From contig JAEUUT010000060.1 of the NCBI GenBank assembly GCA_016787415.1, positions 1 to 64,000 of the forward strand: a DNA stretch of 64,000 nt, written 5' to 3'. Source of the stretch: Saprospiraceae bacterium (GTDB lineage Bacteria > Bacteroidota > Bacteroidia > Chitinophagales > Saprospiraceae). A program made the translations under genes and the position numbers. A model generated the notes under the pieces. The model was not told where the DNA came from. It searched no databases and saw only the letters and a program-made list of their open reading frames with translations. This document shows, one piece after another, positions 3,292 through 52,903 of this stretch (the stretch's first letter is position 1; each line of letters begins with the position of its first letter).

Positions 3292-3509
3292 TAGTTGGTG
3301 TTTTAGTGTTTTGGTGTTTTAGTGTTTTGGTGTTTTGGTGTTTTAGTGTTTTGGTGTTTTGGAGGGCTTCGCGCTTTGTATTTGGGACTAACATGAAGCA
3401 TGTTTCATGGAAGGTATATAAAACACTCCTTTCACGCCCGAAATCAACCTAAAATACCAAGCGCGAAGCCCTCCAAAACACAAAAACACCAAAACACCAA
3501 AACACAAAC
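3292..3509. repeat. Element E2: inverted repeat with GGTGTTTT/AGTGTTTT octamer arms
   Basis: The left arm (3294-3382) has about eight 8-bp words of the form (G/A)GTGTTTT. The right arm (3451-3509) has about four of the complementary words. The inner stem GGAGGGCTTCGCGCTT is paired on both sides. The loop (about 3383-3450) contains a small hairpin near ATGAAGCATGTTTCAT. It separates the sugar transferase stop (3518) from the GT22 start (3286), so it forms the leader of the GT22 gene. Word number differs between arms, which suggests slippage. Confidence 0.88.
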
Positions 3510-5887: not shown

Positions 5888-6017
5888 TTTTGGAGTTATG
5901 AGTTATGAGGGATGAGTTATGAGTGTTTGTGCTATACTCTTTGGCTCTGCTAATAGAATAGACAGGCGTACAGCACAAACACTCATAACTCATAACTCAT
6001 AACTCATAACTCCCAAA
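5888..6017. repeat. Element E3: 46-bp inverted repeat with GAGTTAT words
   Basis: Arms are 5888-5933 and 5972-6017 and match at about 43 of 46 positions. Each arm is a run of GAGTTAT heptamers ending inward in GAGTGTTTGTGCT. One word in the left arm reads GAGGGAT, the same variant seen in both arms of E4. The loop holds CTCTTTGGCTC. It lies between der (its stop is next to the right arm) and the downstream lipoprotein on the same strand. Confidence 0.9.
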
Positions 6018-8481: not shown

Positions 8482-9018
8482 ATGACACCGCACGAATTCC
8501 TCCACGACATGCTTTTGCTCGAACACAGCAAAGCACAAACCATGCGCATTGTTCACTGGATCGGTGCGGACGCCGAGCGCCTGGCTGCACTCATCGACAT
8601 TTTTCTGGGTGACGAATACCGCCTCACCCAGCGCAGTGCCTGGGTCGTACGATATGTCGGTGAAAGCCATCCGGATATGATGAAGCCTTACTACCCCATG
8701 CTGTTGGAAGCGCTGAATCGCCAACCCGTGCACGATGCCGTCAAACGAAATACCTTGAATGTTTTTGAGGATGTGGAAATTCCGACTGAGTATTATGACG
8801 CATTGGCCGACCACTGCTTTAATTACCTGGCCGACCCGAAAGAGCCTATTGCCGTTCGTTGCGCATCCATGACCATTTTGGAAAAAATTACCCGCCAAAT
8901 TCCGGAATTAAGAGAAGAACTCCGACTGCTCCTGGAGGAACAATCGGAGTTCGAATCGGCCGGCATACGAAGCCGAGCGAAGAAAACGCTTTTGAGAGTT
9001 ATGAGGGATGAGTTATGA
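8482..9018 (+). CDS. Hypothetical helical (HEAT-like) repeat protein
   Basis: A 178-residue, strongly helical, acidic protein with paired helices of about 30-35 residues that resemble HEAT/armadillo repeats (AERLAALIDIFLG, RLTQRSAWVVRYVG, AVRCASMTILEKI). There is no catalytic motif, signal peptide or membrane segment. It may act as a small scaffold. It follows the metallo-hydrolase gene by 18 bp and is probably in the same transcript. The last residues (VMRDEL) and the TGA stop are read from the left arm of repeat E4. No family name can be given. Confidence 0.75.
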   Translation: MTPHEFLHDMLLLEHSKAQTMRIVHWIGADAERLAALIDIFLGDEYRLTQRSAWVVRYVGESHPDMMKPYYPMLLEALNRQPVHDAVKRNTLNVFEDVEIPTEYYDALADHCFNYLADPKEPIAVRCASMTILEKITRQIPELREELRLLLEEQSEFESAGIRSRAKKTLLRVMRDEL

Positions 9019-9111
9019 GTGTTACGTACTTTTCTTTTGGCTTATCTAAAAGAGTGGCCAAACGCAGAGTACGTAACACTCATAACTCATCCCTCATAAC
9101 TCATAACTCTC
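8994..9111. repeat. Element E4: inverted repeat with GAGTTAT words; arms differ by one heptamer
   Basis: Left arm is 8994-9030 (37 nt) and right arm is 9068-9111 (44 nt). The inner 33 or more bases pair perfectly, including the variant word GAGGGAT. The right arm has one extra GAGTTAT unit. The arms share their words with E3, while the loop differs (it holds TTTTGGCTTATC against GTGGCCAAACG). It sits between two convergent genes and carries the stop of one and part of the stop of the other. Confidence 0.9.
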
Positions 9112-18326: not shown

Positions 18327-18472
18327 CCCAAGGGGCAAGAGGCAAAGGGTAAAAGGCAAGAGGCAAGGGGCAAAGGGCAAGAGGCAAAAACGCAAAGCGC
18401 CCCCAAGCCACCTTATATTTTTGCCTCTTGCCCCTTGCTTCTTGCCCCTTGCCCCTTGGGCATTGCCTCTTG
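18326..18472. repeat. Element E6: inverted repeat with GGCAAGA/GGGGCAA words
   Basis: The left arm 18326-18390 is a run of degenerate heptamers (GGCAAGA, GGCAAAG, GGGGCAA). The right arm 18418-18461, with one further word to 18472, is its complement. The left arm holds about two or three more words than the right. The loop 18391-18417 is C-rich. It begins at the last base of the ompH stop codon and ends 20 bp before the promoter of the second ompH. Confidence 0.88.
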
Positions 18473-19033: not shown

Positions 19034-19226
19034 GTAGTCCTAAGTCGACAGTCCTAAGTCCTCAGTCCGTAGCGTACACGTAGTTACTCCCGGCATTCGT
19101 TAGTTAGTCTTGAGTCCTCAGTCTGTAGAGTACACCTAGTTTTTCTTAGCATCTTTAATAACAAATGCCAAGAGTAACCAGGTGTACGCTACGGACTTAG
19201 GACTCAGGACTGTCGACTCAGGACTT
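19034..19226. repeat. Element E7: composite inverted repeat with AGTCCTR words and a nested extra arm
   Basis: Outer arms 19034-19079 and 19180-19226 pair at about 41 of 47 positions. They are made of AGTCCTR and AGTCGAC words and end in the core GTAGCGTACACC. Inside, GTTACTCCCGGCATT (19083-19097) pairs with AATGCCAAGAGTAAC (19164-19178). Between these lies a second, directly repeated left arm (about 19105-19137) ending in GTAGAGTACACC. The whole looks like one element inserted into, or duplicated within, another. It lies between two convergent genes. Confidence 0.85.
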
Positions 19227-25051: not shown

Positions 25052-25470
25052 TGAATTAGGGGTGTGCGAAAAGTTTGTTCGGCTACGCCCCTTTTAGAGG
25101 GATGGGAACACGGATGAAGCGGATAAAGCGGATTAAAACTGATTTTTAGTGGCCTTGCGGCCACCTTTTTTTGATTTTTACGGATTTGACCACCTCCAGC
25201 GGGTAGATTCGCATGGCATACACATGAAATGGTACAAGGGATTGATCGATGTTGATTTTTGCTTGCTTTATAAAAGATTGATTCGATATACGTCCCGCCG
25301 AAGGCGGGCAAATCCGTAAAAATAAAAAAACAAGTGGTCGCAAGGCCACTAAAAATCAGTTTAAATCCGTTTCATCCGCTTCATCCGAGTTCCCATCCCT
25401 CTACGAAGGGCGTAGCCCCACAAATCCTTCATACACAACTGATTCATCACTCATCATTCATCATTCAAAA
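25046..25470. repeat. Element E9: largest inverted repeat (about 140-160 bp arms)
   Basis: Left arm 25046-25188 and right arm 25309-25470 pair with some mismatches and small gaps. Words include AATGATG, CGGATGAAG/CGGATAAAG and a GTGGCCTTGCGGCCAC palindrome near 25149. The loop (25189-25308) has a GC-rich hairpin CCCGCC-GAA-GGCGGG at 25294-25308. It fills the 420-bp gap between yraN (stop inside the left arm) and dapB (start 2 bp after the right arm). No ORF is convincing inside it. Confidence 0.85.
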
Positions 25471-27653: not shown

Positions 27654-28847
27654 ATGAACCTACACGAGTACCAGGGCAAGGAATTGCTCAAGTCCTATGG
27701 TGTAAAAATCCAGGAAGGCATCGTTGCCTACAATGCACAGGATGCCGTTGAAGCCGCCAAAAAATTAAAAGAACTCTATGATTCCGGCTGGTGCGTCGTC
27801 AAAGCGCAGGTACACGCCGGCGGTCGCGGTAAAGGCGGCGGTGTAAAACTGGCCAAAAGCCCTGAACAGGCGGGCGAGATTGCACAGGCTATGATCGGAA
27901 TGCGCCTGATTACCCCTCAAACCTCCGCAGAAGGCAAACTCGTGCGCAAGGTACTGGTGGCTCAAGACGTGTTTTATCCGGGCGCTTCCGACCCGAAAGA
28001 ATTTTATATCAGTATCCTGACCGACCGCGGTTCGGGTAGCAATGTCATCATTTACTCGCCCGACGGCGGTATGGACATTGAAAAAGTGGCCGAAGAAACG
28101 CCCGAACGCGTATTTACCGAACACATCGACCCGTTGATCGGCCTGCGCGGATTCCAGGCGCAGAAAGTGGCGTTCAACCTGGGTTTGAGCGGACAGGCTT
28201 TCAAGGAAATGGTCGATTTCGTGCAAAAACTGTACGCCGCATTTGTCGGCGCCGATGCCAGCCTGTTCGAAATCAATCCTTGCCTCAAAACTTCCGACGA
28301 CCGTATCATCGCTGTCGATGCGAAGGTGACCCTCGACGACAACGCGCTGTACCGCCACAAAGACCTGGAAACCCTGCGCGATACCGATGAGGAAGATCCG
28401 GCGGATGTGGAAGCACAGCAATACGACCTGAACTATGTAAAACTCGACGGCAACGTGGGTTGTATGGTGAACGGCGCCGGACTTGCCATGGCTACCATGG
28501 ACCTGATTAAACTGTCGGGTGGCGAACCTGCCAACTTCCTCGACGTAGGCGGCACAGCCGATGCGCAACGCGTAGAAAATGCCATGCGTTTTATTCTGAA
28601 AGATGCCAACGTAAAGGCCATCCTGATCAATATTTTTGGTGGTATCGTTCGCTGCGACCGCGTGGCACAAGGCGTCGTAGATGCCTATAAAGCCATCGGC
28701 ACAATCCCGGTGCCTGTGATCGTGCGCCTGCAAGGCACGAATGCCGATATCGCTAAAAAGATTATCGACGAATCTGGCCTGGAAGTAATGGGCGCCGTTG
28801 AGTTTCAGGAGGCAGCCGATCTGGTGGCGAAGGTGCTGAGCAAGTAA
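27654..28847 (+). CDS. sucC: Succinate--CoA ligase (ADP-forming) subunit beta
   Basis: A 397-residue ATP-grasp protein of standard length. Landmarks are MNLHEYQGKELL at the start and VKAQVHAGGRGKGGG as the nucleotide-binding loop. Further on are FEINPCLKT, AVDAKVTLDDNAL, NGAGLAMATMDLIKLSGG and INIFGGIVRCD. It forms the beta subunit of the TCA-cycle enzyme that couples succinyl-CoA cleavage to ATP (or GTP) formation. The alpha subunit gene sucD is not next to it here, so the two must be apart in this genome. Element E10 follows 1-2 bp after the stop. Confidence 0.98.
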   Translation: MNLHEYQGKELLKSYGVKIQEGIVAYNAQDAVEAAKKLKELYDSGWCVVKAQVHAGGRGKGGGVKLAKSPEQAGEIAQAMIGMRLITPQTSAEGKLVRKVLVAQDVFYPGASDPKEFYISILTDRGSGSNVIIYSPDGGMDIEKVAEETPERVFTEHIDPLIGLRGFQAQKVAFNLGLSGQAFKEMVDFVQKLYAAFVGADASLFEINPCLKTSDDRIIAVDAKVTLDDNALYRHKDLETLRDTDEEDPADVEAQQYDLNYVKLDGNVGCMVNGAGLAMATMDLIKLSGGEPANFLDVGGTADAQRVENAMRFILKDANVKAILINIFGGIVRCDRVAQGVVDAYKAIGTIPVPVIVRLQGTNADIAKKIIDESGLEVMGAVEFQEAADLVAKVLSK

Positions 28848-28848
28848 T

Positions 28849-29059
28849 TATCAGTTATCGGTTATTAGTTATCAGGGGTGGTAAAAAGTCGACAGTCCTC
28901 AGTCCTAAGTCCTCAGTCCGTAGCGTACACCTGCATACGTCGGGTATATCAATTAAGATTGCAATGAGTGATAGGTGTACGCTACGGACTGAGGACTTAG
29001 GACTGAGGACTGTCGACTTTTTACCACCCCTGATAACTAATAACAGATAACAGATAACT
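28849..29059. repeat. Element E10: perfect 72-bp inverted repeat (AGTCCTR words plus outer AGTTATC words)
   Basis: Arms 28861-28932 and 28973-29044 are perfect reverse complements over 72 bp, with a 40-nt loop. From outside in, the arm reads GTTATTAGTTATCAG, then GGGGTGGTAAAAA, then AGTCGAC and AGTCCTC/AGTCCTA words, then core GTAGCGTACACC. Imperfect AGTTATC-type words extend both ends to about 28849 and 29059. It fills the gap between convergent sucC and a small membrane gene. Word variants are mirrored exactly in both arms. Confidence 0.95.
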
Positions 29060-29064
29060 AAAAA

Positions 29065-29364
29065 CTAAAAGAGTTTCACGCCATACACAAATACCCATAC
29101 AAACGCCAGTATGGAAGTGGCGATTACAATGCCGCGCATGGCAAGTTCCCAACGGCGACGGCGATACAGGTTGATCAGAATCATATTGACCGCAATGGAA
29201 ATGATAGCCAGGGTGCGCTCCCGAAAATTGGGAGAGAATCCTTTGTTGCTTACAGCGCCCAGTTTTTCCAGAATACTGAATATTTGATACAGTAAAATGA
29301 ATGCCAGCGCGGGGAAAAGGATTCCCGTGAGCAGGCCGACCCAGATTTTATTTTGTTTTTGCAT
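29065..29364 (-). CDS. Small membrane protein (three predicted helices)
   Basis: A 99-residue protein with three hydrophobic helices: residues about 8-30 (VGLLTGILFPALAFILLYQIF), 51-66 (LAIISIAVNMILINLY) and 77-98 (GIVIATSILAFVWVFVYG). Basic residues RRRR sit between the second and third. No family motif is recognised. It lies 63 bp downstream of surE on the same strand and may be in its transcript. Element E10 follows its stop. Confidence 0.72.
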   Translation of the reverse strand: MQKQNKIWVGLLTGILFPALAFILLYQIFSILEKLGAVSNKGFSPNFRERTLAIISIAVNMILINLYRRRRWELAMRGIVIATSILAFVWVFVYGVKLF

Positions 29365-34370: not shown

Positions 34371-34375
34371 AGAGA

Positions 34376-34430
34376 AGCGAGAGGTGAGAGGTGAGAGGTG
34401 AGAGGTGAGAAGCGAGAGGTGAGAAACATG
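34376..34430. repeat. Element E11: lone arm of GAGAGGT words
   Basis: A tandem run of seven to eight GAGAGGT/GAGAAGC words just after the stop of the type IX cargo gene. No inverted partner is close. The words match E5 and the reverse complement of E8. Confidence 0.75.
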
Positions 34431-34433
34431 AGT

Positions 34434-34473
34434 CATCCCGAATTTTGGTTAAGGCCAGGATTCGGGATTTTTT
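34434..34473 (+). terminator. ATCCCGAAT-type terminator
   Basis: ATCCCGAAT and ATTCGGGAT arms around a TTTGG..CCAGG stem, followed by TTTTTTTT. It terminates the type IX cargo gene and is nearly the same as the hairpins at 32331 and 52904. Confidence 0.82.
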
Positions 34474-34486
34474 TTGTGGCTATTTT

Positions 34487-34640
34487 CCCGTAGAGTAATT
34501 TCCCGCAGATCGCGCAGAATACCCGCAGAACTCGCAGAACGTAGAGTACACCAATACATTGACTGATAGTAAAATGTGTACTCTACGTTCTGCGAGTTCT
34601 GCGGGTATTCTGCGCGATCTGCGGGAAATTACTCTACGGG
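34487..34640. repeat. Element E12: perfect 65-bp inverted repeat (CGCAGAAYT words)
   Basis: Arms 34487-34551 and 34576-34640 are perfect reverse complements over 65 bp, with a 24-nt loop. The arms run CCCGTAGAGTAATTTCC, then several CGCAGAnnn words, then GTAGAGTACAC. Further broken copies of the edge (TAACTCTACGGGAAA) extend to about 34680. An ATTCGGGATGTCTC half-copy lies at about 34714. It sits in the 427-bp gap before the Crp/Fnr gene. Confidence 0.95.
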
Positions 34641-40608: not shown

Positions 40609-40725
40609 GCAACACGGATTGCACCGATATTAACTGATCTACACGGATTTGATTAACACGTCAGAAACTATTACGTCGTTATCAAATCCGTGTAGATCTG
40701 TTAATTCCGTGTAATCCGTGTTACA
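40609..40725. repeat. Element E13: 45-bp inverted repeat with CACGGATT words
   Basis: Arms 40609-40653 and 40681-40725 pair at about 38 of 45 positions. Words are forms of CACGGATTn and GATCTACACGGATTTG. The loop (40654-40680) is 27 nt. It lies between convergent DoxX-like and DinB-fold genes and provides the stop codon of the latter. Confidence 0.85.
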
Positions 40726-49583: not shown

Positions 49584-49763
49584 GGGTGTTTTTTTGTGTT
49601 TTTTGGTGTTTTGGTGTTTTGGTGTTTTGGTGTTTTGGTGTTTTGGTGTTTTGGTGTTTTGGTGGGCTTCGCTCTTGGCATATGTAAAAAAGGGTATGCT
49701 TATTTTCAATGCCAAGAGCGAAGCCCTCCAAAACACAAAAACACCAAAACACCAAAAAACACT
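49584..49763. repeat. Element E14: inverted repeat with GGTGTTTT octamer arms
   Basis: The left arm (about 49584-49683) has nine to ten GGTGTTTT words and then GGGCTTCGCTCTTGGCAT. The right arm (about 49708-49763) has ATGCCAAGAGCGAAGCCC and four ACACCAAAA-type words. The loop is about 24 nt. Words match E2. It lies upstream of DUF983, between co-oriented genes (49768-50067 then DUF983). Confidence 0.9.
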
Positions 49764-52677: not shown

Positions 52678-52732
52678 AAGGTTTCCTTAAAGTGGAGCCA
52701 CTGTATTTTTTTCGAAACGGGGCTACATTTTT

Positions 52733-52886
52733 CCTGTAGAGTAATTTCTCGCAGAACTCGCAGATTAATACGCAGAATTCGCAGAACGTAGAGTACACAT
52801 TTAACCTCGATGAATACAAGGTGCACTCTACGTTCTGCGAATTCTGCGTATTAATCTGCGAGTTCTGCGGGAAATTACTCTACGGG
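52733..52886. repeat. Element E15: 66-bp inverted repeat (CGCAGAAYT words)
   Basis: Arms 52733-52798 and 52821-52886 match at 63 of 66 positions; the three differences are all C/T or A/G, so G-U pairs could keep the RNA stem. The arms begin GTAGAGTAATTTC, hold CGCAGAnnn words and end in GTAGAGTACAC. It lies in the 322-bp gap between the converging genes 52336-52677 and 53000-60085, next to an ATCCCGAAT terminator. Apart from that, nothing else is seen in this gap. Confidence 0.93.
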
Positions 52887-52903
52887 AAATTACTCTGCAA
52901 AAA

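Follow-up and report, generated by a model that had tools for sequence, protein, structure and literature searches.

The palindrome that follows sucC in the window (the whole stretch of 64,000 nucleotides analyzed here, from a 6.1-Mb draft genome in 299 contigs, G000) is probably a nested member of a dispersed set of palindromic, non-coding repeats outside genes that are kept symmetrical by DNA copying from arm to arm, altered by slippage and spread as units. We assign this reading a probability of roughly 0.6. Bacteria are expected to lose long palindromes that are nearly perfect, and the first-pass annotation of this DNA had regarded so long a stem as unstable and its tolerance as unexpected; that expectation has to be set against several hundred such palindromes in the genome. 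Each genome retains hundreds of them, at positions shared between species, and the stems there are rewritten symmetrically. These repeats offer a natural replicated system for how hairpin arms change together, whether by template switching, replacement or selection, and they carry a caution that covariation, usually taken as proof of a functional RNA, can come from copying at the DNA level. They also constitute a REPIN-like repeat set without a partner transposase among the candidates examined.

Anatomy of the palindrome after sucC

The inverted repeat first noticed here, 72 bp per arm and perfect around a 40-nt loop, was borne out, with arms at 28861-28932 and 28973-29044 that are reverse complements with 0/72 mismatches and a spacer of 40 nt. 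The repeat extends outward to 28845-28932 and 28973-29060 (88 nt, 97% complementary). Folding energies were -162.9 kcal/mol as RNA (z = -25.7) and -100.3 kcal/mol as DNA (z = -25.9), both about 26 standard deviations under shuffled sequences. A hairpin scan (match +1, mismatch -2, score of at least 20) found no palindromes in the shuffled window and zero in both Markov-simulated DNA and 100 kb of E. coli MG1655, which places the sucC palindrome far beyond chance. It occupies the gap between two convergent stop codons, with surE next along. Although a single locus had been implied, its word composition identifies it as a nested composite of two dispersed families, in which outer TTATC words enclose an inner AGTCC / GTAGCGTACACCT palindrome. 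The features are as follows, with strand given for the genes.

27654-28847 (+): sucC, succinyl-CoA ligase beta subunit; stop codon directly adjoins the palindrome
28848-28886: outer left arm, TTATC family; TTATC-type 7-nt words plus CAGGGGTGGTAAAA, outer words shared with the orthologous sites of four further species
28887-28932: inner left arm, AGTCC family; AGTCGAC AGTCCTC AGTCCTA AGTCCTC AGTCC plus GTAGCGTACACCT
28933-28972: 40-nt loop, a decayed apical stem of the AGTCC family (family form in the alignment, GATTACyyTTGGC...GCCAArrGTAATC)
28973-29018: inner right arm, AGTCC family
29019-29057: outer right arm, TTATC family
29065-29364 (-): 99-aa ORF convergent with sucC, no family match; stop codon 7 nt from the palindrome

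Word families and unit structure

The arm had also been described as a chain of imperfect words, which agrees with the 7-nt period of the arms (lag-7 identity of 0.43 compared to a background of about 0.25; median arm length of 56 nt). About 12 word families were distinguished, including AGTCC, TTATC, GAGTTAT, GTGTTTTG, GGCAAGA, CGCAGA, CGGATT, GTGAGAG, GTTGATGA and others. A core near the apex, GTAG[A/C]GT(ACAC), is common to the AGTCC, CGCAGA, GTGAGAG and CACAAAG families. The core of the inner AGTCC family is fixed in length: all 64 facing half-site pairs showed a separation of 74-80 nt, with 39 of them at exactly 78 nt. No facing pair was more than 80 nt apart, and an autonomous element flanked by half-sites was rejected on this basis. 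Further palindromes in the window are listed below, with the state of the orthologous site in relatives (G049, G006 and G045) where informative.

1717-1850: second AGTCC-family palindrome; orthologous site occupied in G049 too
3330-3505: GTGTTTTG-word palindrome; the G049 site holds a GGTTGAG-word palindrome nested in GTGTTTTG-word arms, another nesting case
5888-6017: GAGTTAT-word palindrome; inner stem different in G049, with both arms mirrored
8996-9102: GAGTTAT-word palindrome
18336-18472: GGCAAGA-word palindrome; empty site in G006 and G045
19036-19225: third AGTCC-family palindrome; one full unit plus a half unit
34487-34640: CGCAGA-word palindrome with GTAGAGTACAC core; perfect 65-nt arms, empty site in G049
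40629-40705: ACGGATT-word palindrome
49633-49757: GTGTTTTG-word palindrome
52730-52889: CGCAGA-word palindrome

Two other arrangements were observed. Positions 25058-25469 of the window hold a CGGATT-family palindrome complex with long complementary flanks, and G049 has a GAGTTAT-word palindrome at this place, an apparent case of family switching at one site. Elsewhere in G000 (contig C104, L019:742-882 and 2258-2384), two AGTCC palindromes with the same loop lie 1.5 kb apart in opposite orientation, which suggests a recent local inverted duplication.

Abundance and genomic setting

Sequences matching the sucC palindrome were found in at least 41 places in G000. The exact 13-mer GTAGCGTACACCT occurs 40+39 times in this genome, with 0 occurrences of the reversed control, and a looser AGTCC half-site occurs 165+163 times in G000, 142+143 times in its relative G049 and 13+13 times in G006, and is absent (0) from most of the genus and from every other family tested. 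The hairpin scan identified 12 long palindromes in the window, 36 in 343 kb of unselected G000 DNA (1.05 per 10 kb) and 71 in 440 kb of the closest relative, G049 (1.6 per 10 kb). Extrapolation from these sampled contigs gives totals of about 640 and 940 palindromes per genome, respectively, if the density is uniform. Other members of the genus showed 0-8 long palindromes per 20-40 kb, and none were detected in about 85 kb scanned from other families. A GGGTAGA-word palindrome with 116-nt arms in G009, of the same genus (L198:19269-19586), indicates that this kind of repeat probably reaches beyond the immediate clade. A phage origin was rejected after 50,697 phage records gave no match, an Rfam search of the window returned no match, and the open-access literature searched, a coverage that leaves subscription journals outside, contained no earlier description of these elements.

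Several word families of long palindromes fill intergenic sites, preferentially between convergent genes. On the basis of simple ORF calls, convergent gene pairs are over-represented around occupied gaps (odds ratio of 4.5, p = 1e-8), and occupancy did not differ between divergent and tandem gaps. This bias fits either tolerance of palindromes away from promoters or a two-way block of transcription.

Coordinated change of the two arms

Both arms differ together between species at orthologous sites. In five species a palindrome lies in the sucC gap; its outer words are of TTATC type, and its inner stem is mirrored but different in each of the five. Among G000 sites with anchored flanks in the sampled contigs, 30 of 38 are occupied in G049 too, compared to 111 of 343 gaps overall; the word family is kept at 22 of the 30 shared sites and switched at 8. 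The two genomes differ by 0.43 at fourfold sites, and their genes are about 85% identical in the syntenic window region. Arm identity is 0.947 within an element, a value inflated by a hairpin detection that favors matching arms, and 0.604 for the same arm between species; the informative facts are therefore the occupancy of orthologous sites and the mirrored changes. Nine alignable AGTCC orthologue pairs carry 30 mirrored changes, compared to a permuted mean of 9.3 and a maximum of 28 in 2000 permutations. Across 36 copies, mirrored double changes number 121, where shuffled sets give 62.8 +/- 6.3 and slid controls 10-29.

The perfect agreement of imperfect words had been taken to mean that one arm is copied from the other or that both are very young. 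The same composite, with the same decayed apex, has one further occurrence in G000, a paralogue at C29:36186-36369. The window copy differs from this paralogue at 7/71 positions in the left arm, 5/40 in the loop and 11/72 in the right arm, and despite this 10-15% divergence its own arms remain without a mismatch. This comparison points to resynchronized arms in the window copy, although the argument is drawn from one pair and would lose force if decay was simply faster in the C29 copy. Since sites are shared between species and the paralogue shows this pattern, youth alone is unlikely, and it is the copying half of the original proposal that gained support. Arm copying at the DNA level is favored over selection on RNA or mere youth.

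Copying is not continuous, however. Across 98 AGTCC copies, many of which are decayed, an arm lies a median of 7 mismatches from its partner in the same copy and a median of 4 from the closest arm elsewhere, so that the closest arm usually lies in another copy. At orthologous AGTCC sites, the 68-nt cores share an identity of 0.73, the same value as random members of the family, and whole-unit replacement could thus also yield mirrored change. Loop similarity was uninformative for telling descent from replacement, and a search for a direct template-switch footprint, such as loop inversion, found none. Arm copying and whole-unit replacement probably both occur.

In the reading we prefer, which offers the simplest mechanism, a palindrome would fold during replication and one arm would be copied from the other through template switching (quasipalindrome correction), which would keep the symmetry at the DNA level. 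Slippage of the 7-nt words would alter the arrays, and whole units would reach new sites, singly or nested in older palindromes, by means of an enzyme or ectopic recombination. Gains of palindromes are visible as empty sites in relatives. The sucC site may have begun with an old TTATC palindrome, found in five species, that gained an AGTCC unit in the G000 lineage. Template switching is known from other systems to create and mend hairpins (PMC8794818, PMC8604942), and PMC7202029 likewise describes it. An essential function would be unnecessary, with a side role as a two-way transcription block between convergent genes being possible.

Candidate spreading enzymes and nuclease tolerance

A REP-associated tyrosine transposase (RAYT) is present in G000 (L045:1219-1833; contig C19, about 16.5-17.5 kb), with a GC-rich palindrome of its own, CGCTGGCGCGCGGCTGTGCCGCGTGCC, on both sides (L045:997-1111 and 1850-1960). 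This REP is unrelated to the AGTCC and TTATC palindromes, none of which was found beside the REP-type transposase or an IS200-type gene of G000. A palindrome similar to CGCTGGCGCGCGGCTGTGCCGCGTGCC was also observed near a Y1 match at the start of contig C29 of G049. Counts of Y1 transposase genes across relatives, a subset of which was inspected, did not track the palindromes, and palindrome-rich G016 has two Y1 matches, both strong IS200-type. RAYT as the driver was rejected for now on the basis of these counts and of the different REP carried by the one clear RAYT.

SbcCD-like nuclease genes, proposed by the first-pass annotation as a check on tolerance, gave a divided result. Canonical SbcD was not detected above the cut-off in G000, G049, G006, G016, G045 or most of the genus, and only a few genus members exceeded it. 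A divergent Mre11/SbcD-like and Rad50/SbcC-like pair, below canonical SbcCD cut-offs, is nevertheless present in G000 (C67, about 129.9-133.4 kb; L246:2358-5932). Missing SbcCD as the sole reason for tolerance was rejected, given this divergent pair and the palindrome-poor relatives that also have no canonical SbcD.

Alternative explanations

The repeats could instead be mobile units only, with REPIN- or MITE-like whole hairpins repeatedly inserted or swapped at favored intergenic sites and arms that match through recency. Such units would account for the narrow spacing of all 64 half-site pairs, the nested units, the empty sites in relatives, the 8 of 30 sites with a switched family and orthologous AGTCC loops and cores no more alike than random ones. 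However, the window copy and the C29 paralogue share a decayed apex while the window arms are perfect, most shared sites (22 of 30) retain their word family, and the transposase survey returned no matching enzyme, so we consider mobility by itself an unlikely explanation. A dedicated, previously undescribed machinery of this Saprospiraceae clade, unrelated to RAYT, that both spreads and renews long word-built palindromes in hairpin form and writes the two arms jointly is likewise an unlikely proposal; if true, it would mean that sites are conserved while the palindrome sequence turns over.

Selection on RNA, with the palindromes acting as terminators or 3'-end stabilizers whose pairing is kept through compensatory mutations, is improbable. 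The enrichment between convergent genes, the direct abutment of the sucC palindrome on both stop codons and its strong RNA fold are all consistent with this role. However, arm mismatches in transcript orientation comprise 82 G-T and 98 A-C, and this lack of a G-U excess counts against RNA selection, since G-U pairs are expected as tolerated intermediates. Many sites are also empty in relatives, comparable sites carry simple intrinsic terminators, and the window matches no Rfam family. A T5 is present just past the inner arm of the sucC palindrome; across palindromes, TTTT occurs within 15 nt past the arm at a frequency of 0.14, compared to 0.16 elsewhere. An intrinsic terminator was rejected, as there is no excess of T-runs past the arms and the terminator search was negative at the sucC palindrome.

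Amplification chimeras are able to create inverted repeats and the genomes are draft assemblies, but false inverted copies from sequencing are a very remote explanation for palindromes that are found again at the same gene boundaries in species assembled independently, where the genes on either side are intact, show slight arm differences in many copies, and have word-type counterparts in relatives assembled in 7 (G009) and about 70 (G022) contigs.

Comparison with known repeat systems

REPINs are REP doublets that form hairpins (Bertels and Rainey, PMC3116915). The AGTCC units resemble them in having two conserved inverted ends at near-fixed spacing (a 68-nt core here; in GI REPINs, 71 nt separate the 16-mers), compensatory changes in a variable spacer, an extragenic location and hundreds of copies; the layout of inverted ends at fixed spacing around a covarying spacer is that of a REPIN. 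Unlike REPINs, their half-sites have no REP-type internal palindrome (AGTCC...GTAGCGTACACCT contains nothing beyond GTAC), tandem 7-nt word arrays extend the arms to a median of about 56 nt, no linked RAYT was found, and there are several word families with nesting. The GTAG REP superfamily shares the GTAG at the foot of the core, the palindromic structure and the extragenic location. In those REPs, GTAG is unpaired, stems measure 5-13 bp and the total length is 20-40 bp (Di Nocera et al., PMC3733652), whereas here GTAG (columns 34-37) pairs with CTAC in 36/36 copies, arms reach 50-90 nt and the helix spans 59 pairs. The paired GTAG, the stem length, the lack of a REP core in each half and the lack of a linked RAYT set these elements outside the REPs and REPINs. 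For a comparison with MITEs, which have terminal inverted repeats and a target-site duplication, both empty and filled sites were seen, in species (about 85% identical in genes) too diverged to define junctions.

Template-switch correction of quasipalindromes (PMC8794818, PMC7202029) would be expected to leave stems perfect and changes paired in the DNA itself. The published accounts concern single RNA stems and mutational hotspots, whereas here long palindromes lie dispersed by the hundred in each genome. The heptanucleotide repeats of Calothrix, Nostoc and Xanthomonas (PMC4692102) are likewise intergenic tandem 7-nt words; these are mostly head-to-tail and G-rich, whereas the words described here form palindrome arms around a core.

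Finally, a head-to-tail GAGAGGT array that is not palindromic was observed at about 34371-34480 of the window, followed by a simple intrinsic terminator. The G049 counterpart contains a similar array, and its terminator stem is different yet self-complementary. Judging from this pair of sequences, ordinary terminators may turn over in the same way as the palindromes.
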